Part shown: piece by piece, positions 21,590 through 31,220 of the stretch
Numbering within the stretch: position 1 is the stretch's first letter
How the letters are laid out: every line of letters begins with the position of its first letter
NCBI RefSeq assembly: GCF_013409645.1
Contig: NZ_JACCBG010000001.1
Span: 2,416,001-2,480,000, forward strand
Reading direction: 5' to 3'
Length of the DNA: 64,000 bases
DNA from: Nocardioides panaciterrulae
GTDB taxonomy: Bacteria > Actinomycetota > Actinomycetes > Propionibacteriales > Nocardioidaceae
Notes under the pieces: model-generated
Database searches by the model: none
Seen by the model: the letters and a program-made list of their open reading frames with translations, nothing else
Told to the model about the DNA's origin: nothing
Position numbers and translations under genes: made by a program

Positions 21590-23014
21590 ATGTTCCAGAA
21601 CAGCGACGAGCTGCTCGCATACATCAAGGACGAGGGCGTCGAGATGGTCGACGTCCGTTTCTGCGACCTGCCGGGTGTCATGCAGCACTTCACCGTCCCG
21701 GTCTCGTCGTTCGACCAGTCCGTCTTCGACGACGGCCTCGGCTTCGACGGGTCGTCGATCCGCGGCTTCCAGGCCATCCACGAGTCCGACATGTCGCTGT
21801 TCCCGGACCCGACCACGGCCTACCTCGACCCGTTCCGGTCGAAGAAGACCCTGGTCGTGAACTTCTTCATCCACGACCCGCTCACCGGCGAGGCGTACTC
21901 CCGCGACCCGCGCAACATCGCCCGCAAGGCGATGGCCTACCTGGCCAGCACCGGGGTCGGCGACAAGGCGTTCTTCGCCCCGGAGGCGGAGTTCTACGTC
22001 TTCGACAACGTGCGCTTCGAGACCAAGGCCAACGCCGGCTACTACGAGATCGACTCCGAGGCGGGCGCCTGGAACACCGGCGCGAGCTTCGAGTCCAACA
22101 ACCGCGGCTACAAGGTGAAGTACAAGGGCGGCTACTTCCCCGTCGCCCCCACCGACCACTTCGGCGAGCTGCGCGACGAGATGGTCGTGGAGCTCGAGCG
22201 CTCCGGCCTGCAGGTCGAGCGCGCCCACCACGAGGTCGGCACGGCCGGCCAGGCAGAGATCAACTACCGCTTCGACGAGCTGCTCAAGGCCGCCGACGAC
22301 GTGATGAAGTTCAAGTACATCATCAAGAACGTCGCCTGGCGCAACGGCAAGACCGCGACGTTCATGCCCAAGCCGATCTTCGGCGACAACGGCTCCGGCA
22401 TGCACTGCCACCAGTCGATCTGGAACGGCGGTGAGCCGCTGTTCTACGACGAGACCGGGTACGGCGGGCTCTCCGACATCGCCCGCTACTACATCGGCGG
22501 CCTGCTCAAGCACGCCCCGTCGCTGCTGGCCTTCACCAACCCGACGGTGAACTCCTACCACCGCCTGGTGCCCGGCTTCGAGGCCCCGATCTCGCTGGTC
22601 TACTCCCAGCGCAACCGCTCGGCGTGCGTCCGGATCCCGATCACCGGCTCGAACCCCAAGGCCAAGCGCATCGAGTTCCGCTGCCCGGACCCGTCGGCGA
22701 ACCCCTACCTGGCCTTCTCGGCGCTGCTGCTGGCCGGCCTGGACGGCATCAAGAACAAGATCGAGCCGGCCGCCCCGGTCGACAAGGACATCTACGAGCT
22801 GCCGCCGGACGAGATGGCCGACATCGACCAGGTCCCGACGTCGCTGAACGCCGTGCTCGACAACCTCGAGCGCGACCACGACTTCCTCACCCAGGGCAAC
22901 GTGTTCACCCCCGACCTGATCGAGACCTGGATCGACTACAAGCGCACCAACGAGATCCTGCCCGTGCAGCTGCGTCCGCACCCGCACGAGTTCGAGCTGT
23001 ACTACGACATCTGA
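21590..23014 (+). CDS. glnA: Glutamine synthetase type I (beta)
   Basis: Glutamine synthetase makes glutamine from glutamate, ammonia and ATP as a dodecamer. The 474-residue protein has the family blocks [60 protein letters not shown] with metal ligands, and [10 protein letters not shown]. Tyr402 in DIYELPPDE is the site that GlnE adenylylates, and glnE lies 37 kb away in this window. The ATG at 21590 is preceded by AGGAGGACG. A complete GlnR box lies upstream. The last codons (TAC TAC GAC ATC TGA) form the left attachment site of an integrated element; the protein end is intact. Confidence 0.98.
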
Positions 23015-23016
23015 TC
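22996..23016. repeat. Left attachment site (attL) in the 3' end of glnA
   Basis: TACTACGACATCTGATC at 23000-23016 is repeated exactly at 31204-31220. The match extends three more bases leftward after one mismatch. The site covers the last four glnA codons and the stop. Confidence 0.85.
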
Positions 23017-23135: not shown

Positions 23136-23900
23136 AGCGTCGACCCCGGCGCGCGTCGGGGCTCCGCCCCTTCCGAGCGCCGTGTCCATCGCTTTGCGCG
23201 CCTTGTCGCCCGAGCTCGGCATCACGTGCGTGTAGACCCTGAGGGTGAACCCCGGATCGGCGTGCCCGAGGTACTCAGACACAGCTTCATGCTGACCCCG
23301 TGCTCGAGCCAGAGCGGTGCGCAGGTGTGGCGGAGCGCGTGCATCCCGTTGTCGCGTTCGTTCGGAATCCCGACCGCACGGAGGGCCAGCCGCCAGACCG
23401 CCTGGTTGAAGTAGTTCCGGTTCAGCGGCTTGCGCTCCCGGCTGTAGAAGATCAGCCCACCAGCAGCCGGAGCCTCGAGCCGCTCGCCACTCAGCGGCGC
23501 CATCCGTTCGAGGTGCTGCGCGAGCTCGAACCCGACCCATTCCGGCATCGGCACCGACCGGACCCGGCCGTACTTCGGAAGAGCCGGCACAGGCCGTCCG
23601 CCCTCGAGCCGGATCTGTTGTCGCACGTGCAGCTCATGACGCAGGAAGTCAACGTCCTGGACTCGGACGCCGAAGGCTTCGCCCTGGCGCAAGCCACATC
23701 CGGCAGCAACGACGACCAGCGCTCTGGATGCCTCGGGCATCTCGTCCACGACCGCGAAGACTCGCTCCGCGGACCACGGTCGCACCTTTCGGGACCGGTT
23801 GAGCGGGCGCGCGTACGCTGGCTGACCGCGCCGGGTTTTGGGTCAGCAAGCCCTCTTCGACGGCAGCGTTCAGGATGGCTCCAAAGTTCCCCAGCAACAG

Positions 23901-25341
23901 TGGAGTCCAGCAGAGTGGTGTACGACGGACCTGAGTGAGCGCGTGCCTGCGACGTAGGCGCGGCCACCGGGTGGATCCTTCGAGTGATCTGCGAAAACCG
24001 ACTCGAAGAAGGACACCACGATGACCGCTGGACCCAGTATCGACCCTGCTCTGACCACGACGTTGGACCCGGGTGAGTTCTTGCACGAGCAGCTCGCGCA
24101 GGCCTCCCCGGACCTGATGCGCGAGCTGTTGTCCACCTTCGTCAACGCGCTGCTCGGCGCCGAGGCCGACGCGGTGTGCGGGGCGGCCTACAACAGCCGG
24201 TCGACCGAGCGGGTCAACTCCCGCAACGGGTACCGGCACCGCGACCTGGACACTCGGATGGGCACCGTGGACGTGGCGATCCCCAAGCTGCGTTCGGGGA
24301 CCTACTTTCCCGAGTGGCTGCTCGAGCGACGCCGCCGCGCGGAGTCCGCGCTGACCTCGGTGGTGGCGACCTGCTACCTGCTGGGGGTCTCGACGCGGCG
24401 GATGGACAAGCTGGTGCAGTCCCTGGGCATCACGGGCCTGTCCAAGTCCCAGGTCAGCGTGATGGCCCGCGATCTCGATGCCCACGTCGCCGACTTCCGC
24501 AGCCGGCCACTAGACGCCGGTCCGTACACGTTCGTGGCCACCGACGCGCTGACCATGAAGGTCCGCGAGGGCGGCCGGGTGCTCAATGTGTCGGTCATGG
24601 TCGCCACCGGCGTCAACGCCGACGGACATCGCGAGGTCCTCGGGATCCAGGTGGCCACCGGGGAGACCCACGCCGGCTGGCTGACCTTCTTCCGCGACCT
24701 GGTCGCCCGGGGGCTGGCCGGGGTCGCGCTGGTCACCAGCGATGCCCACGCCGGCCTCGTCGAGGCGATCGCCGCAGCCCTGCCCGGCGCGTCGTGGCAG
24801 CGCTGCCGCACCCACTACGCGGCCAACCTGATGGCCGCCTGCCCGAAGTCGGCCTGGCCGGGTGTGAAGGCGATGCTGCACAGCGTCTACGACCAGCCCG
24901 ACGCCGAAGCCGTCCATGCCCAGTTCGACAAGCTCCTCGACACCGTCGCCCAGACACTGCCGAAGGTTCATGACCACCTCGACGGCGCCCGCGCCGACAT
25001 CCTCGCCTTCACCGCGTTCCCCCGGGAGGTGTGGCGCCAGATCTGGTCCAACAACCCCAACGAGCGGCTCAACCGCGAGATCCGCCGCCGCACCGACGTC
25101 GTCGGCATCTTCCCCAACCGCGACGCGATCATCCGCCTGGTCGGCGCGGTCCTGGCCGAGCAGCACGACGAATGGGCCGAGGGTCGGCGCTACCTCGGCC
25201 TCGACGTCCTGGCCCGCTCCCGCATGACTCTGGTGACCGGCGAAGCCACCACCGACAACACCACCGACAAGGAGGCACTCACCGCCTGACCGACACGCCC
25301 GAACGAAGGATCAACTTCGTACACCACGCCACGGGACTTGA
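23901..25341 (+). mobile_element. IS256-family insertion sequence inside int
   Basis: The insertion is about 1.44 kb. CCCCAGCAACAG occurs at both junctions (23889-23900 and 25342-25353); the true target duplication is probably 8-9 bases of it, and the rest is chance identity, so the ends are uncertain by a few bases. Imperfect terminal inverted repeats share AGTCC and GTGGTGTACGA. It carries one transposase gene. Removing it with one copy of the duplication rejoins the integrase frame exactly. Confidence 0.9.
24021..25289 (+). CDS. IS256-family transposase
   Basis: The 422-residue mutator-type DDE transposase has an N-terminal part with LLSTFVNALLGAEADAVCGA and NSRNGYRHRDLDTRMGTVDV, then IPKLRSGTYFPEWLLERRRR. 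The first acidic residue is Asp175 (VATDALTMKV), the second Asp241 (LVTSDAHAGL), and the Glu lies in the NPNERLNREIRRRTDVVG block near residue 350. CRTHYAANLM is the conserved cysteine-histidine segment between them. The ATG at 24021 is behind GAAGGACACC. It looks intact, so the IS may be active. It reads against the integrase it interrupts. Confidence 0.96.
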   Translation: MTAGPSIDPALTTTLDPGEFLHEQLAQASPDLMRELLSTFVNALLGAEADAVCGAAYNSRSTERVNSRNGYRHRDLDTRMGTVDVAIPKLRSGTYFPEWLLERRRRAESALTSVVATCYLLGVSTRRMDKLVQSLGITGLSKSQVSVMARDLDAHVADFRSRPLDAGPYTFVATDALTMKVREGGRVLNVSVMVATGVNADGHREVLGIQVATGETHAGWLTFFRDLVARGLAGVALVTSDAHAGLVEAIAAALPGASWQRCRTHYAANLMAACPKSAWPGVKAMLHSVYDQPDAEAVHAQFDKLLDTVAQTLPKVHDHLDGARADILAFTAFPREVWRQIWSNNPNERLNREIRRRTDVVGIFPNRDAIIRLVGAVLAEQHDEWAEGRRYLGLDVLARSRMTLVTGEATTDNTTDKEALTA

Positions 25342-25353
25342 CCCCAGCAACAG
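25342..25353. repeat. Right copy of the 12-bp junction repeat of the IS
   Basis: CCCCAGCAACAG here repeats 23889-23900. IS256-family elements make 8-9 bp target duplications; the other bases may be shared by chance between host and IS ends. Confidence 0.75.
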
Positions 25354-25794
25354 CCGCACGTAGCCGGCGGACAAGTCGACCGACACTGCCCGCAGCCAGC
25401 GCTGAACCGCCGCAGAGGTGATCCGCACCAGAGGCCACGTTCCCCACTCCGGGAGTATGTGAACCCGCAACCGGGTCTCGAGAGCAGTGCGGCTCGTCGG
25501 CTGCATGACTTGGCGGTCGAGCCACTCGCCTGCGAAGTCAGCGAACGAGACGCGGCCCGCGCGCTCGTCCACATACGACCCGCGGTTCAGTCTGTGCTGA
25601 AGATCGGCAAGAAATCGCACGGCGTCGACCTCCGGATCGAACGAGCGGTTCCGTGATTGGCCGTCGGGATCGCGGTAGCGAACCTGCCAGCGCTTGCCGC
25701 TGCCATACAGAGACGAGCGCACCCGCCGTCCCGATCCGCGTTCTGTGGTGTGCCATCGATCGGCAATCGACGCCATGCGCTCCTCCTTCGGAAG

Positions 25795-25999: not shown

Positions 26000-27062
26000 T
26001 CATGCGCTCACCGCCATCCGACGCTCGGCGAGAAGACCGGCAAACGACCGACCAGTTTCGAGCTCATCGAGCGCAAGGTGCCGACCGACGCGATGCAGCG
26101 TCTCCTCGAGAGTCTCAGCGTCCAGCAGCGCCCCGGCGCGGGCGAGGCAGCCCCGCAGTGCCGGCATGATCCGCCGCAGCTCGCCACTCGACGCTCCGGC
26201 GGCGATCCTCGTCAATCCCGCTGCGTTCCCTCTGAGAGACGCCGACTGGATCTGACGCCACTCCGGAGCCACCGGCCAGGGAGAGCGCGTCTGGTCGTCC
26301 GACTCCTGACGAAGTGACAGCCAACGGTCCGTGAGGTAGCCCCAGAGTTCAGGCAATCGCTCGAGAGCATCTGCCGGCGAGTCGATCCGCGACTGCCGCA
26401 GCACAGGTCGGCCCACCTGAAACTCGACACGGATCACCCCGTTCACCGGGCGTGTAGGCGTCGCCCCAGACGGAAGGCCACCAGTCCGTGCCCTTCTTCC
26501 GCGACTTCTCCGACTCGTCGTAGATGCGGGCCATCACGCCCGCCCTCCGCGTGCCGAACACCAGGGTGCGAAGGGTGTCCTCGTCCTCATAGGTCACCCG
26601 CTGTTTGGCACGACAGACGAAGTTCCCGCGGTCCGCCGAGTCGATCCCCCAGCCATGCGAGTCCATAAAGACATCGATGCTGGATGCCTTCCAGGAAGCG
26701 CGACCGAGCAGGAGCTCCGCGACGTCCATGAACCACTGGAGCGCCTGAACGATCCCCACGGCGTGGATGAACGCGGCCGAGGGCTGCACGTGCACCGTCG
26801 TCAACGACGCACTGGTTGTCAGCCCGATCAAACCGTGGGCGTGCTCGAGGCGGTAGGGATACCGGTTGAGCGCTCCCCCGGCGACCCAGAATCGATCACC
26901 GCCTACATCGAACTGCGACCGCGTCCGGGTCTCACGCGCCGAGGTCCGTGCTTCGTCCAGATCCTCCAGCAGCGCTTCCGACATCGACCCGCGCCCGGAG
27001 AGATAGAACGAGTCCACGCCAGACGCGAGCTCAACGAGCTCACCAGCGTCAACCAGTCCCAC
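26000..27062 (-). pseudogene. Rep_trans-like replication initiator, frameshifted
   Basis: The first part reads GLVDAGELVELASGVDSFYL, later TVHVQPSAAFIHAVG and DVFMDSHGWGIDSADRGNF, then TLVFGTRRAGVMARIYDE. The GTR...R.YD pattern and a following RVEFQ match replication initiators of the Rep_trans type (as in Tn916 Orf20 and NicK). The frame breaks at the CCCC run near 26437-26440: after GDAYTPGER the continuation VIRVEFQVGRPVLRQSRIDS and LPELWGYLTDRWLSLR lies in the next frame, to a stop at 26000. One extra G in that run explains it. I start at the GTG at 27062, inside the first operator; an upstream ATG would read through both operators. The family call is fairly secure, the exact role an inference. 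Confidence 0.7.
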
Positions 27063-27072
27063 ATTTGGGACT
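27055..27072. promoter_or_regulatory. Palindromic operator 1 (before rep)
   Basis: AGTCCCACATTTGGGACT is a perfect 7-4-7 palindrome at the rep start codon. Two related sites follow at 27093 and 27490. Confidence 0.75.
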
Positions 27073-27092
27073 GTAGATAAAAAAGCCGCTCT

Positions 27093-27110
27093 AGTCCAAC
27101 ATTTGCGACT
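27093..27110. promoter_or_regulatory. Palindromic operator 2
   Basis: AGTCCAACATTTGCGACT matches site 1 at 16 of 18 positions; its centre lies 38 bases away. It overlaps the stop codon of the small regulator gene and lies upstream of rep, with an AT-rich stretch (TAGATAAAAAA) between the two sites. Confidence 0.72.
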
Positions 27111-27489
27111 AGCTGCCGTGCGTGTCGCGCTGCGCGCCACTCCCCCCGAGGTACGCGTCGACGTCGATGGAGATGCCAGGGAAGCTGTACTCGTCGGGGT
27201 GCGAACCGAACAGCTTCCGGAACGTCGCCACCTTCCGGTAGATCGACGACCTGCTCATGCCAAGCGCCTCAAGACCCTCGAAGCCGCCGTACAGATGCCA
27301 CAGCAGCCAGAACCCAACCAGGTCCGACACCTTGTTCGCCGAGATGCTGGTGATCGCGTCACCCAATGGCGTCTTCTCGATGGCGGGATTCACGTACTTC
27401 TTGGTTGCGCCGACGTAGGCATCCCAAGCCGCGCGAGCCAGCCCGCGCCCCTCGGGCGAGGGCATCGGGTCCGATCGGAAGTCGCTCAC
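27109..27489 (-). CDS. Small element-encoded protein, probable DNA-binding regulator
   Basis: The 126-residue protein starts with a GTG at 27489 directly beside operator 3. It has SPEGRGLARAAWDAYVGATK, then VSDLVGFWLLWHLYGGFEGL, and a segment EALGMSRSSIYRKVATFRKL that reads as a helix-turn-helix, followed by HPDEYSFPGISIDVDAYLGG. I have seen this combination in short proteins near replication genes of actinobacterial elements. Its start and stop are both flanked by matching palindromes, consistent with autoregulation and control of rep. This regulatory role is inferred; no binding is shown. Confidence 0.65.
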   Translation of the reverse strand: MSDFRSDPMPSPEGRGLARAAWDAYVGATKKYVNPAIEKTPLGDAITSISANKVSDLVGFWLLWHLYGGFEGLEALGMSRSSIYRKVATFRKLFGSHPDEYSFPGISIDVDAYLGGSGAQRDTHGS

Positions 27490-27507: not shown

Positions 27508-27562
27508 GTCACCGACAGCGCTCGTCGACAACGCCGCAGCAGCGGGGTGGTATCTTGAGGTC

Positions 27563-27680
27563 ACGAAGCACAGGCGTACGGCCTGCCAGTTCGCAACTGG
27601 GGTGCTTCACAGAACTGGGAGACTCAGGTTCGATTCCTGACGGCCGTGCCGTAGCTCAATGGAAGAGCATCCCACTTTTC
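27563..27680 (+). ncRNA. Structured tRNA-like RNA candidate with tRNA halves in swapped order
   Basis: A TATCTT -10-like box lies at 27551. GAAGCAC (27565) pairs with GTGCTTC (27602), enclosing AGGC/GCCT and CCAGTT/AACTGG hairpins. Then come TGGGA (27616-27620), GAC, a perfect T arm TCAGG-TTCGATT-CCTGA (27624-27640), CGGC (27641), CGT, GCCG (27648), TA, a perfect D arm GCTC-AATGGAA-GAGC (27654-27668), A, TCCCA (27670-27674) and CTTTT. TCCCA pairs with TGGGA as an anticodon stem and GCCG with CGGC as part of an acceptor. The 3' half thus precedes the 5' half. It may be a permuted tRNA, two tRNA remnants or a mimic; the acceptor top does not pair and no CCA is present. It ends at the last HEPN gene's stop. 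Confidence 0.5.
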
Positions 27681-28568
27681 TTATCTCAGGCGTTCGATGG
27701 CGGCACTTAGTTCATCTGCCGTCAGTGCGAGTGCCGAGTACGTCCCCCTCGTGTAGCCCACAAGCGACCGCAGCGCCGAGTTGTGGCTCGGGCTCTTGGC
27801 GCCCAGCGCGAAGTACTCCTTGGCCGCCATGTTCGCCCACTCGTCGCGCGGGATAGCGGACTGCAGCGCGAGGTTGACGTCGTAGGAGAGCCGTTTTCCG
27901 ATCGCAAGCGTCGCGATGAGCTCGCCGACGCCCACTTCCACAGGAGTGCCCTCAACCAGCACTTGGAACGGCCTCTTGGTCAATTCCTCCCAGCCCGCAA
28001 TCTGCGTTGGGGTCATCCCAGTCGTATAGCGTTCCAGCTCCTTGCTACCTAGCCCGCCCGCGTGAATATGGCAGTTACGCATCAGTCTGGTTAGGTGGAA
28101 GAGCGCCAGCGCGTCTACATCCATAGCGACGCCGGAGGCAGCTTCGATCTTCTCGTGAACGTTGAACGTCTTCGCATCCCGAAGCTGCGAGCGCGTAACC
28201 AATCCCAGGGGAAGAAGCCATCCCAAGCACGTCTTGACGAAGTCCTCGTGCAGCGCGATCGCGTAGGACATCCCCATCGTGCACAGATCGGCCTCAGCAT
28301 CTCCGAGCAGCGACCGGGCGATGTCGGACCGCAGATTGAAGCGCTCAATGTGCTCGACGGTTGGGAACATCTCGGCCAGGGTCCGAGTGGATCCCTCGGT
28401 GAGGTTCAACGTGTTCGAGGCGATCTTCGAACCCGCCAAGATGGCCCAGATCGCGTTCCCGGCGTCGATCCGTCTCTGTTCGAGCGTCCGGAAGGCTTCG
28501 AAGTGCACCTGCGGACGCGTGCGGTACCGAGCTGTCACTCGGCAACCGTAGAGCCTTCCTTCGCTCAA
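27681..28568 (-). CDS. HEPN-like protein, third gene of the cargo operon
   Basis: I do not recognise a named family for this 295-residue, mostly alpha-helical protein. Residues 94-120 (DLCTMGMSYAIALHEDFVKT, CLGWLLP) and 150-172 (LFHLTRLMRNCHIHAGG) form two helices, the second with RNCHIH at 164-169, an R-x4-H motif as in HEPN ribonucleases. No membrane segment or zinc site is seen. The gene starts 59 bases after the HEPN/zinc-ribbon gene and reads in the same direction, so it is probably part of that operon. Its stop abuts the tRNA-like sequence. Its codon use is less GC-rich than that of core genes. HEPN membership is an inference from motif and helix pattern. Confidence 0.6.
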   Translation of the reverse strand: MSEGRLYGCRVTARYRTRPQVHFEAFRTLEQRRIDAGNAIWAILAGSKIASNTLNLTEGSTRTLAEMFPTVEHIERFNLRSDIARSLLGDAEADLCTMGMSYAIALHEDFVKTCLGWLLPLGLVTRSQLRDAKTFNVHEKIEAASGVAMDVDALALFHLTRLMRNCHIHAGGLGSKELERYTTGMTPTQIAGWEELTKRPFQVLVEGTPVEVGVGELIATLAIGKRLSYDVNLALQSAIPRDEWANMAAKEYFALGAKSPSHNSALRSLVGYTRGTYSALALTADELSAAIERLR

Positions 28569-28627
28569 TGGCGTTTGCGACAGCGCTCTTTGCAGTTTGA
28601 GGGTGCTGTGTTACAGATCGCGCACCC

Positions 28628-29446
28628 TCAGACGAGCCGCCGAGCCCAGGTCGTCGACGAAGCCTTGGTGTGACCGCACTCGGCGCAACGCTCGGTCACG
28701 CCGCAACTCGGGCAGGTCCCAAGCTTGGCCCGAACCTCGATCGTCTTCTCTTCTCCGCAATGCGTGCACGCGAAGGTGCCAGCCGGGGCCTTCTGGCCGG
28801 CCTGAAACGACGCCTCAGGCTGAAGGATCGCATCGGCGCCCAATTCGGACGTCTCAGCTAGTGCTGTCGCGATGACAGAAACCTGAGTAAGCATCAGCAA
28901 CACCTCCCACGACCCAGTTCGCAAGCTCTTCAGGTAATCCGCTGGGCGCGTGACCTGGTAACCCTTGTCCTTCGCGAGATCCGACAGGAACGTGGCTGCG
29001 TGAGCACTCGGATGGGCGACCGCGTTCCGAACGACCGTGAGCTCCTTCAGGGCGGCCACTTCAACCGGCCGATTTCGAAGCCAGGAGTACGGCTCCCCTC
29101 GCACGAGGTATGCGTCGGCCCGGTCAAGGCTGGCGTCGTACGGCAGCCACGTCAGGAAGCTCTCTCGACGTCTGCCATCCGAGTAGATGAGGAGCTCAAC
29201 CTCGGCGCGGGAGGAAACGGGCAGCACCGGAGCAATGCACGCGGCGCCGTGCTGCAGCAACATGCAGAGATAGAAGAGTTCTTCGAGGTACGTCTCGAGC
29301 AGGGAAAAGGCACGAAGTGCGACCAGCTCGACAACTCCGTCAAGCGTCTCGGCTTCGATCTTGGCGCGCTGAGCGTCAAGTACCACATTCTTGAGCGCGT
29401 CGATCCCGTCCGTTAGACGCTTCTTCGCGTCGTCCAGATACGACAT
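28628..29446 (-). CDS. HEPN protein with C-terminal zinc ribbon
   Basis: The 272-residue protein has an alpha-helical N-terminal domain: LDGVVELVALRAFSLLETYL is the first long helix, and LKELTVVRNAVAHPSAHA carries RNAVAH at 140-145, the R-x4-H core of HEPN ribonucleases (RN then H, as in the RiboL-PSP and MAE_28990/MAE_18760 groups). The last 50 residues hold Cys227, Cys230, Cys245, Cys248, Cys254 and Cys257, a zinc ribbon plus an extra CxxC knuckle. It starts two bases after the DUF262 stop, so the two are translated together. HEPN genes of this type are known to sit beside DUF262 genes. RNA cleavage is an inference. Confidence 0.8.
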   Translation of the reverse strand: MSYLDDAKKRLTDGIDALKNVVLDAQRAKIEAETLDGVVELVALRAFSLLETYLEELFYLCMLLQHGAACIAPVLPVSSRAEVELLIYSDGRRRESFLTWLPYDASLDRADAYLVRGEPYSWLRNRPVEVAALKELTVVRNAVAHPSAHAATFLSDLAKDKGYQVTRPADYLKSLRTGSWEVLLMLTQVSVIATALAETSELGADAILQPEASFQAGQKAPAGTFACTHCGEEKTIEVRAKLGTCPSCGVTERCAECGHTKASSTTWARRLV

Positions 29447-29448
29447 CG

Positions 29449-30495
29449 TTAGAAGCTCAGGAGGTATTCCAGCCGAATCTCACGACTTCGTCGATCCGCC
29501 GTTGCTCCCCGAAGCACCTTCGCCACATCCTCATCGAGGTCTTGCGGCTTTCGAAGTTCAAGCTCCGCCCCCTCGAGTCGTTCAACGAGGGCGGCGGGCG
29601 TTGCGTCGACCTGTCCTCTCACAGCGCCAGCAGCGACGGCAAAAATCGTGTAGAACCACGCAGACGACCTGAAGCGCTTGAGCCCAGAACGGCTCGCGCT
29701 CGGGGAGTAGATCGCATCGAGGTAGTCGAAGGCGGCCCGAAATTCATCCTCGACCCGAGGTCGCTCAGGGAAGGCTTCGTCGTTCGACTTGTAGAGCCCG
29801 TCCAACGACGCCTTGGTACGTGCCTGGATCCCGCGCATCAGGAAGCCCATCAAGTCGGACGTCAGTTCGACCTCGCGCATCTGAGCAATCTCCTGAACGC
29901 CGAATACCTGCCACTTCAGCCACCGCTGATACTGCTCGTACGCCAGCTGATAGGCGGTGTCCTTAAACTCGCCGAAGTAGGTCGCGTTCCGAATCTCCTG
30001 GTCGTTCAGCTTGTAGCCAGTTGAATTCATGCGCTGGAAGATCGTTAGGACCGTGACATCGTCAACGTCTGCTGGAAGAACGTTGACCGACAGCGGGGTC
30101 TGCAGGATGTGTCGCTGCGTCTCGTCCGGGAGCTGCGTGAAGGCGAGACCCGCGAACTCCCGGTTATGCGAGCGGAGGACCGTGAAGTCGTCCCATTCAT
30201 CCCTCTCAGCCAAGCAGTCGATATCTACGTAGCTAAGGATGGTGCGCAGCCTTTGCTGACCGTCGACGACATGACGCATGGTCTTCGACGTCACTACATC
30301 CAGCCGGCTGTGCAGGAAGATCAGCGGCAGTGGAAATCCTCGCAGCAGCGAGTCGATCAGAAGACTCTTTACCCGAGGGTTCCAGACAGCTCGACGCTGG
30401 TAGTAGGGCTGCAGCTCCAACGACCCTTGGCGCTGCCACTCGAGGAAGTCGATGACGGTGTAGGTCGTCCGAGTGACGGATAGAGGCTCAAGCAC
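29449..30495 (-). CDS. DUF262 (ParB/Srx-fold) protein, first gene of the cargo operon
   Basis: The 348-residue protein has the DUF262 blocks: VIDFLEWQRQGSLELQPYYQ then RRAVWN (residues 15-39), SLLIDSLLRGFPLPLIFL, and HVVDGQQRLRTILSYVD with the DGQQR signature at 78-82. NSTGYKLNDQEIRNATYFGE is the second conserved block. No DUF1524 HNH nuclease domain follows, unlike GmrS/GmrD type IV restriction enzymes, so any nuclease must come from the ParB fold or the partner. The downstream HEPN gene is coupled by a two-base gap. DUF262 proteins often work in defence. The role in this operon is inferred. Confidence 0.88.
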   Translation of the reverse strand: MLEPLSVTRTTYTVIDFLEWQRQGSLELQPYYQRRAVWNPRVKSLLIDSLLRGFPLPLIFLHSRLDVVTSKTMRHVVDGQQRLRTILSYVDIDCLAERDEWDDFTVLRSHNREFAGLAFTQLPDETQRHILQTPLSVNVLPADVDDVTVLTIFQRMNSTGYKLNDQEIRNATYFGEFKDTAYQLAYEQYQRWLKWQVFGVQEIAQMREVELTSDLMGFLMRGIQARTKASLDGLYKSNDEAFPERPRVEDEFRAAFDYLDAIYSPSASRSGLKRFRSSAWFYTIFAVAAGAVRGQVDATPAALVERLEGAELELRKPQDLDEDVAKVLRGATADRRSREIRLEYLLSF

Positions 30496-31199: not shown

Positions 31200-31220
31200 G
31201 CTCTACTACGACATCTGATC
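31200..31220. repeat. Right attachment site (attR)
   Basis: TACTACGACATCTGATC at 31204-31220 repeats the glnA end. The host glnA terminator follows two bases later, so this copy is the scar of the original glnA 3' end. Confidence 0.85.

Follow-up and report, generated by a model that had tools for sequence, protein, structure and literature searches.

Gene content of the locus

The window analysed here is a 64,000-nucleotide stretch of the Nocardioides panaciterrulae genome (contig NZ_JACCBG010000001.1, positions 2,416,001 to 2,480,000), and it holds an element, bounded by repeats of the 3′ end of a reading frame that we take to be glnA, in which three minus-strand genes are followed by a convergent structured RNA (Table 1). 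An earlier analysis of this DNA from its letters alone (the sequence-only reading) had described the three open reading frames (ORFs) as separated by gaps of 2 and 59 bases, and the ORF coordinates reproduce both gaps. The 59-base gap between genes 2 and 3 rests on a TTG start. Because the closest homologue of gene 3 (L137, 77% identical and from a different family of the same order) begins MTSRYRTRP, which aligns to VTARYRTRP in gene 3, the start probably lies at the GTG and the true gap is probably 89 bases.

Table 1 Coordinates of the genes, RNA domains and repeats in the window
Feature	Coordinates	Strand	Description
Gene 1	29449..30495	-	DUF262/GmrSD_N protein, 348 amino acids, DGQQR motif, no HNH domain
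Gene 2	28628..29446	-	HEPN (residues 1-207), RNAVAH at 140-145, C-terminal six-cysteine zinc ribbon
Gene 3	27681..28568	-	HEPN protein of a family of its own, with RNCHIH (164-169); probable GTG start at 28538
Structured RNA	27565..27684	+	Tail-to-tail with gene 3, overlapping its stop codon
RNA domain 1 (P1-P3)	27565..27608	+	Hairpins P2 and P3 inside the 7-bp stem P1 (27565-27571 paired to 27602-27608)
RNA domain 2 (P4-P7)	27616..27674	+	Permuted tRNA-like; P4 pairs 27616-27620 with 27670-27674
Left repeat of glnA 3′ end	22996..23016		Attachment-site candidate; repeat family D3
Right repeat of glnA 3′ end	31200..31220		95% identical to left copy; repeat family D3

Two separately inherited modules

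The sequence-only reading had treated the three genes as one system in which a single sensor gates two RNases, and the neighbourhoods of related loci argue against this. Gene-3 relatives were present at 17 loci beyond the window (14 genomes and 3 plasmids), and in the stretches fetched around them, which mostly covered 8-9.5 kb per side (less at L141, where one side spanned 6.5 kb, and for the plasmids, at 4-6 kb), none of the 17 contained a DUF262 gene or a gene-2-type HEPN gene; the same profiles recovered the DUF262 and HEPN pair in three control loci. Approached from the other side, a gene-3 profile matched none of the 2758 ORFs taken from the best 80 of 136 DUF262 loci, and two Rhodococcus plasmids and genome G055 carry the pair but no gene 3. 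Since gene-3 loci are found without the DUF262 pair and DUF262 loci without gene 3, we conclude that genes 1 and 2 (module A) and gene 3 (module B) are two independent modules that are separately inherited. Of the proposed three-gene order, the conserved pairing of genes 1 and 2 thus stands, and the inclusion of gene 3, which has neither partner at any of its 17 other loci, does not. A three-gene defence system with a DUF262 sensor gating two HEPN RNases would fit the close spacing and shared orientation in the window, but the neighbourhoods of the gene-3 and DUF262 loci largely refute it, and together with the fact that gene 3 adjoins an RNA of its own they leave it very unlikely.

A convergent RNA accompanies gene 3

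The usual neighbour of gene 3, overlooked in the sequence-only reading, is the convergent RNA. By pattern search and by eye, an RNA of ~120 nt lies directly downstream on the opposite strand in 17 of the 18 gene-3 loci, the three plasmids included, and the similarity between the window and L137 extends into the DNA just beyond the gene 3 stop codon. The Rfam model of YrlA (RF02553) matches the window RNA at 33.9 bits, under its gathering threshold of 69, and gives 23.8-33.3 bits in 11 of the 14 other genomic gene-3 loci; at the three plasmid loci there was no YrlA match at E up to 1.

We used two covariance models to examine the specificity of this association. The model R1, built from five loci of one genus, recovered 12 of the 13 non-seed loci (E 1.6e-15 to 8e-5; window 1.6e-10), with no other match at E up to 1 in 350 kb of loci, and in the host genome (4.27 Mb) its single match lies beside gene 3 (E 2.0e-9). 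The second model, R2, was built from all 17 RNAs and so has the window, which scores 87.8 bits, in its seed. Across 372 genomes of the order it gave 11 matches of at least 80 bits, all beside gene 3; as these are its own seed loci, the informative part is the score gap beneath them, where a decayed pair in G060 (gene 3 in two ORFs) scores 61.8 bits, G922 scores 60.5 bits and all remaining matches in the order reach at most 49.6 bits. In this set the RNA lies beside gene 3 in 12 of the 13 gene-3 genomes.

Low R2 scores are unspecific, with matches in 246/372 genomes of the order and 246/346 of the phylum at E up to 0.01 under stricter filters. They include tandem tRNA genes and sub-threshold YrlA-like RNAs, and for this reason only matches of ~60 bits or more were relied on: ARAGORN placed at least two tRNA genes over the match in 19 of 37 R2 loci, and all 13 R2 loci compared with Rfam matched YrlA below threshold. 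The G922 match (L163, 1501-1654) is a permuted tRNA-like RNA that overlaps a tRNA-Met and has no adjacent gene 3; the surrounding ORFs were read as phage structural genes without a family search.

Structure and covariation of the RNA

The RNA consists of two domains. Within domain 1, P3 has a loop of 7 bases that is T-loop-like; after the domain comes a linker that reads ACAGAA/ACUGAA-like in most rows. In domain 2, P4 occupies the position of the anticodon stem, P5 that of the T-arm and P7 that of the D-arm, and P6 is a closed hairpin at the position of the acceptor stem. The P7 helix, GCTC/GAGC, is invariant (17/17), and P6 differs between loci in both sequence and length. Read as a tRNA, domain 2 has its opening where the anticodon loop would be and a sealed acceptor end, and would resemble an anticodon-cleaved tRNA.

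In the 17-row alignment, 95.2% of 564 paired cells are complementary pairs, and 27 of the 35 base pairs show changes on both sides, among them 7/7 in P1 and 4/4 in P2; six of the seven helices carry double-sided changes. The covariation score, for which the alignment had been guided by the structure, was 0.526, compared with 0.152 after shuffling and at most 0.102 when pairing partners were slid. Complementary P1 strands of differing sequence are also visible in the raw sequences of most loci, with 14 distinct P1 strand pairs among the 17 rows. At L147, a broken copy with gene 3 divided between two ORFs, the RNA lacks all pairs of P2 and P3, as though gene and RNA had decayed jointly.

We also considered whether the locus might be an attachment site or tRNA remnant, such as a tRNA gene in permuted form or a pair of tRNA halves that integration left behind, and not a functional RNA. 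ARAGORN does call a long tRNA-Ala at 27557-27650, and tandem tRNA genes reach ~50 bits with R2. Double-sided changes in six of seven helices, P1 among them, are not expected of two plain tRNAs, however; P6 is closed, variable in length and replaces the acceptor stem; and the repeats of the element lie at glnA, 4.5 kb away. We regard a remnant as scarcely credible. A permuted or ordinary tRNA gene was likewise rejected on structure, the tRNA-Ala call covering roughly half of domain 2 in addition to domain 1.

Relationship to YrlA and other Y RNAs

The closest architectural counterpart is found in the YrlA Y RNAs, which share with the gene-3 RNA a permuted tRNA-like module made of a closed acceptor hairpin, a T-arm and a D-arm. 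The two differ in that the gene-3 RNA does not reach the gathering score of the YrlA family and has a HEPN gene, and not Ro60, as its neighbour: a search for TROVE (Ro60) found no match in the host genome or in 12 of the 14 other gene-3 genomes. A sub-threshold score is not peculiar to the gene-3 RNA, since YrlA-like RNAs near Ro60 (L183-L185) also fall below the Rfam threshold, at 31.5-56.2 bits. R2 itself matches at 50.6-54 bits about 1 kb from Ro60/TROVE matches in G225, G134 and G113. When the G922 RNA and those linked to Ro60 at L183-L185 were set against the gene-3 RNA model, P4, P5 and P7 fitted and P6 mostly did, and pairs in P1-P3 broke in each of the six alignments listed. The comparison suggests that the gene-3 RNA is a relative or a look-alike of Y RNAs with a HEPN gene, and not Ro60, as its neighbour. 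One genome, G844, holds both types, a gene-3 RNA of 132 bits with R2 and a separate YrlA-like match of 42.7 bits just upstream of a TROVE gene (C2, C4), and offers a natural test of partner specificity.

Gene 3 represents a separate HEPN family

Gene 3 carries the RNCHIH motif that the sequence-only reading had pointed out, and Pfam returned nothing significant for it. In the family alignment (17 rows, with the broken copy L147 excluded), H169 is kept in 17/17 and R164 in 16/17. An AlphaFold model (predicted local distance difference test, pLDDT, 88; predicted template modelling score, pTM, 0.82; alignment A9, 14 rows) had HEPN proteins as its four best VIA matches, in agreement with the fold that had been proposed: an MNT-linked toxin (7ae9/7ae6, Z 8.5 and 8.2) and HepS (9oij/9oik, 7.5). 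The row after these is unrelated and has Z 6.4. Foldseek alone returned nothing below E 0.001. Both HepS, from Salmonella Gifsy-1, and MNT-HEPN resemble gene 3 in predicted fold at a sequence identity of 7-10%, and MNT-HEPN is among the best folds for gene 2 as well. The Z values of genes 2 and 3 are modest for helical bundles, and the conserved R-x4-H therefore matters for the HEPN assignment of both.

With the window genome included, relatives of gene 3 were found in 4 of 96 genomes of close relatives, 13 of 372 of the order and 2 of 396 of the phylum, and on 3 of 72,556 plasmid records, and no relative of gene 3 was found in the viral contigs scanned. On a Mycolicibacterium arabiense plasmid (L007, 3818-6828) the homologue follows two cyclase-domain genes and a gene of a Pycsar effector family, and at least one gene-3 copy thus lies amid likely defence genes.

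Genes 1 and 2 form a DUF262 and HEPN pair

The sequence-only reading had recognised in gene 1 a DUF262 signature without an HNH nuclease, and we confirmed both parts: VVDGQQRL is present, and Pfam matched GmrSD_N/DUF262 only (E 1.9e-23), with no HNH or DUF1524 domain. In an alignment of 31 family members, VVDGQQRL is among 18 invariant columns. The RNAVAH motif and six-cysteine ribbon reported for gene 2 were also borne out, the cysteines forming three C-x2-C pairs at the C-terminus that match the Pfam DUF1451 zinc ribbon at 1.7e-7. Its HEPN bundle, which had likewise been proposed, appears in the best VIA matches of the AlphaFold model (pLDDT 81; alignment A10, 27 rows), where the ten best are HEPN toxins or proteins of the same fold (Z 10.1-8.7) and the next is a designed protein (Z 8.5); Foldseek returned nothing below E 0.001. 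As regards the MAE_28990-type HEPN genes that the sequence-only reading had brought up, Pfam matched no HEPN model to gene 2 or gene 3 at E up to 1, and at 0.01 it matched one HEPN_Apea (0.0016) and one HEPN_RiboL-PSP (0.0025) among the 31 gene-2-type partners.

To assess how widely the pair is conserved, species genomes were scanned with the DUF262 alignment and the best 80 of 136 relatives, from many phyla, were kept. A gene-2-type HEPN gene, detected with a profile from four sequences, lies directly downstream of the DUF262 gene in 26 of these 80 loci, and further DUF262 loci have an R-x4-H in the downstream gene, which is weaker evidence than a profile match. R140 and H145 are the sole invariant columns among 31 DUF262-linked HEPN partners, most of which were chosen for the motif; the less biased set found by profile has R-x4-H in 26 of 26. 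A nuclease-free DUF262 protein with a HEPN partner is therefore a real and widely conserved two-gene unit. A search of 394 genomes with gene 2 gave two weak matches beyond the window, one of them a true DUF262 and HEPN pair. No relative of gene 2 was found in the viral contigs scanned, and a scan of viral contigs with DUF262 found relatives at 27 loci.

The C-terminal ribbon of gene 2 has no counterpart among the 26 profile-found partners, in which L021 has one C-x2-C, at its N-terminus. The pair in G055, from the same genus as the window, is without a ribbon. Two Rhodococcus plasmids (L010, L011) carry the pair with a four-base overlap and a shorter cysteine-bearing tail on the HEPN protein, and a third record also matches; set against the three C-x2-C pairs of gene 2, the shorter tail suggests that the zinc ribbon is in flux.

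Among known systems, the natural comparison for module A is PD-T4-2, reportedly from Vassallo et al. 2022. The sequence-only reading had found no named system for the three-gene arrangement, and this does not hold for genes 1 and 2, which PD-T4-2 fits by domain content; gene 3 belongs elsewhere. In the accessible part of PMC10952713, PD-T4-2 is listed with the same two domains, DUF262 and HEPN, and the accessible part of PMC9519451 describes increased T4 plaquing after its deletion in the native strain. Gene 1 matches the PADLOC profile NsnA (6.1e-42) better than PD-T4-2_A (2.4e-26), and each of the 31 rows in the DUF262 alignment is matched by the two profiles; the profile name NsnA could not be traced in the literature searched. 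PADLOC gave no hit for genes 2 and 3 (E up to 1), and gene 2 differs from the PD-T4-2 and NsnA type in its added ribbon. Module A would thus be a zinc-ribbon variant of a known DUF262 and HEPN kind. The type IV restriction enzymes GmrSD, BrxU and SspE share with gene 1 a DUF262 domain whose (I/V)DGQQR motif forms part of a nucleotide pocket (PMC10952713, in the part available); gene 1 differs from GmrSD in having no DUF1524/HNH nuclease, with an RNase-type partner in its place. HEPN families share operons with ParB-fold genes according to a 2013 survey (PMC3710099, partial text). The DUF262 plasmid-cost gene PFLU4242 was set aside as a comparison, as it has DUF1524 (PMC8544851, partial text).

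A proposed mechanism and its alternatives

The explanation that we favour, at a probability of roughly 55%, is that the 8.2-kb glnA element carries two independent modules as cargo, of which module B would be an RNA-restrained HEPN ribonuclease. In module A, a ParB-fold and probably nucleotide-hydrolysing sensor would control the HEPN ribonuclease, the zinc ribbon having presumably been gained here. Module B would consist of the gene 3 HEPN ribonuclease and the convergent ~120-nt RNA, whose domain 2 would copy a tRNA that has a cut anticodon loop and a closed acceptor end. The RNA would be expressed and bound to the gene 3 protein, restraining it as an RNA antitoxin or a competitive tRNA decoy. 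Once the RNA is lost, or once a phage or stress signal arrives, the nuclease would be free to cut RNA, most likely tRNA anticodon loops, and growth would stop. We favour RNA restraint because of two precedents: the AbiF HEPN toxin is neutralised by an RNA (PMC12373285, partial text), and it has been proposed that the tRNA-like domain of YrlA might inhibit an anticodon nuclease by competition (PMC7790460, partial text). The presence of gene 3 on three plasmids, where toxin-antitoxin genes are often found, also speaks for this reading. AbiF/RCd22 resembles module B in that a HEPN-related protein is tied to one structured non-coding RNA, as gene 3 is in 17 of 18 loci, and AbiF has been linked to Cas13 ancestry (PMC12373285, in the part available). 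Gene 3 differs from it in that Pfam found no Abi_2 domain there (E up to 1), and its RNA, unlike that of AbiF/RCd22, is convergent downstream and tRNA-shaped. A more specific proposal, which we put forward tentatively and at less than even odds, is that the RNA imitates an anticodon-cleaved tRNA and product-inhibits the nuclease until it is displaced by real tRNA damage or by a phage signal, in which case a HEPN ribonuclease with a Y-RNA-like permuted tRNA mimic might constitute a ribonucleoprotein toxin-antitoxin or defence system of a new class.

Several observations weigh against an RNA-restrained ribonuclease. Besides the structure-fitted alignment behind the covariation count, the window RNA on its own is no more stable than its shuffled versions (z -0.41), unconstrained folding yields all seven helices, at least in part, in 1 of 17 rows (that of the window itself), and RNAalifold on plain sequence alignments recovers the structure in part only. 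A sigma-70-like promoter and a terminator were looked for and neither was found. At L136 (G078, one of the two gene-3 genomes with a TROVE match) gene 3 is intact and no RNA was detected beside it by eye or with R1, the best R2 match in that genome being one of 31.1 bits ~94 kb from gene 3. L141 has lost the catalytic arginine, with a leucine at 164, and retains a well-paired RNA. The gene 3 copies of L138, L139, L140 and L142, all from one genus, share one chromosomal neighbourhood, unlike a typical mobile toxin-antitoxin pair; the 12 shared-neighbour clusters listed all come from these four loci. Lastly, in Salmonella no cutting of tRNA-like YrlA by an anticodon nuclease was seen, according to the accessible part of PMC7790460, a result that may be taken to leave the inhibitor idea open and not proven.

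In the main rival reading, the HEPN nuclease is activated or guided by the RNA, which would serve it as a structural or targeting cofactor, in a logic nearer to that of Y RNAs or guides. Its YrlA-type architecture, the YrlA-like RNAs near Ro60/TROVE in G225, G134, G113 and G844, and the Deinococcus Y RNA that tethers Ro60 to PNPase (PMC7790460, in the part available) would all be consistent with such a role, but the RNA has no obvious variable targeting region and its inter-helix linkers are short, and we consider a cofactor unlikely, if less so than the other alternatives. That the RNA is instead a substrate, with gene 3 processing a stand-alone regulatory RNA, appears improbable: the stable association of the two and the common chromosomal place in part of one genus would fit, whereas the RNA is convergent and not co-transcribed with gene 3, and module B occurs on plasmids too. 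Under RNA restraint, gene 3 would stand alongside AbiF as a second family of HEPN proteins that have an RNA of their own. For the tRNA-like domain of the YrlA Y RNAs, which are known from Ro60 operons, inhibition of an anticodon nuclease is one published proposal (PMC7790460), and a YrlA-like RNA genetically tied to a probable HEPN ribonuclease makes this proposal directly testable in a two-part system of ~1 kb. In the open-access literature searched, most subscription papers lying outside this search, we saw no account of a HEPN gene that has a Y-RNA-like RNA as its partner.

The element at glnA

The sequence-only reading had placed the genes on a glnA element, and this is upheld by the 21-base repeat that covers the 3′ end of the glnA frame and recurs ~8.2 kb away (Table 1). 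Both copies fall in a low-GC stretch: the GC content per kb is 0.61-0.72 between 21 and 36 kb, as against 0.70-0.81 in the rest of the window. Two minus-strand ORFs within 26000-27140, between the integrase and the RNA, are possibly replication or element genes; for one of them (26349-27140) Pfam gave no match at E up to 0.01. The integrase is in two minus-strand pieces, at 23222-23785 (Phage_integrase) and 25279-25776 (SAM-like N-terminal domain, weakly matched). Between the two pieces lies a Mutator-family transposase (24021-25289, plus strand), and the element, its integrase in pieces, may no longer be self-mobile.

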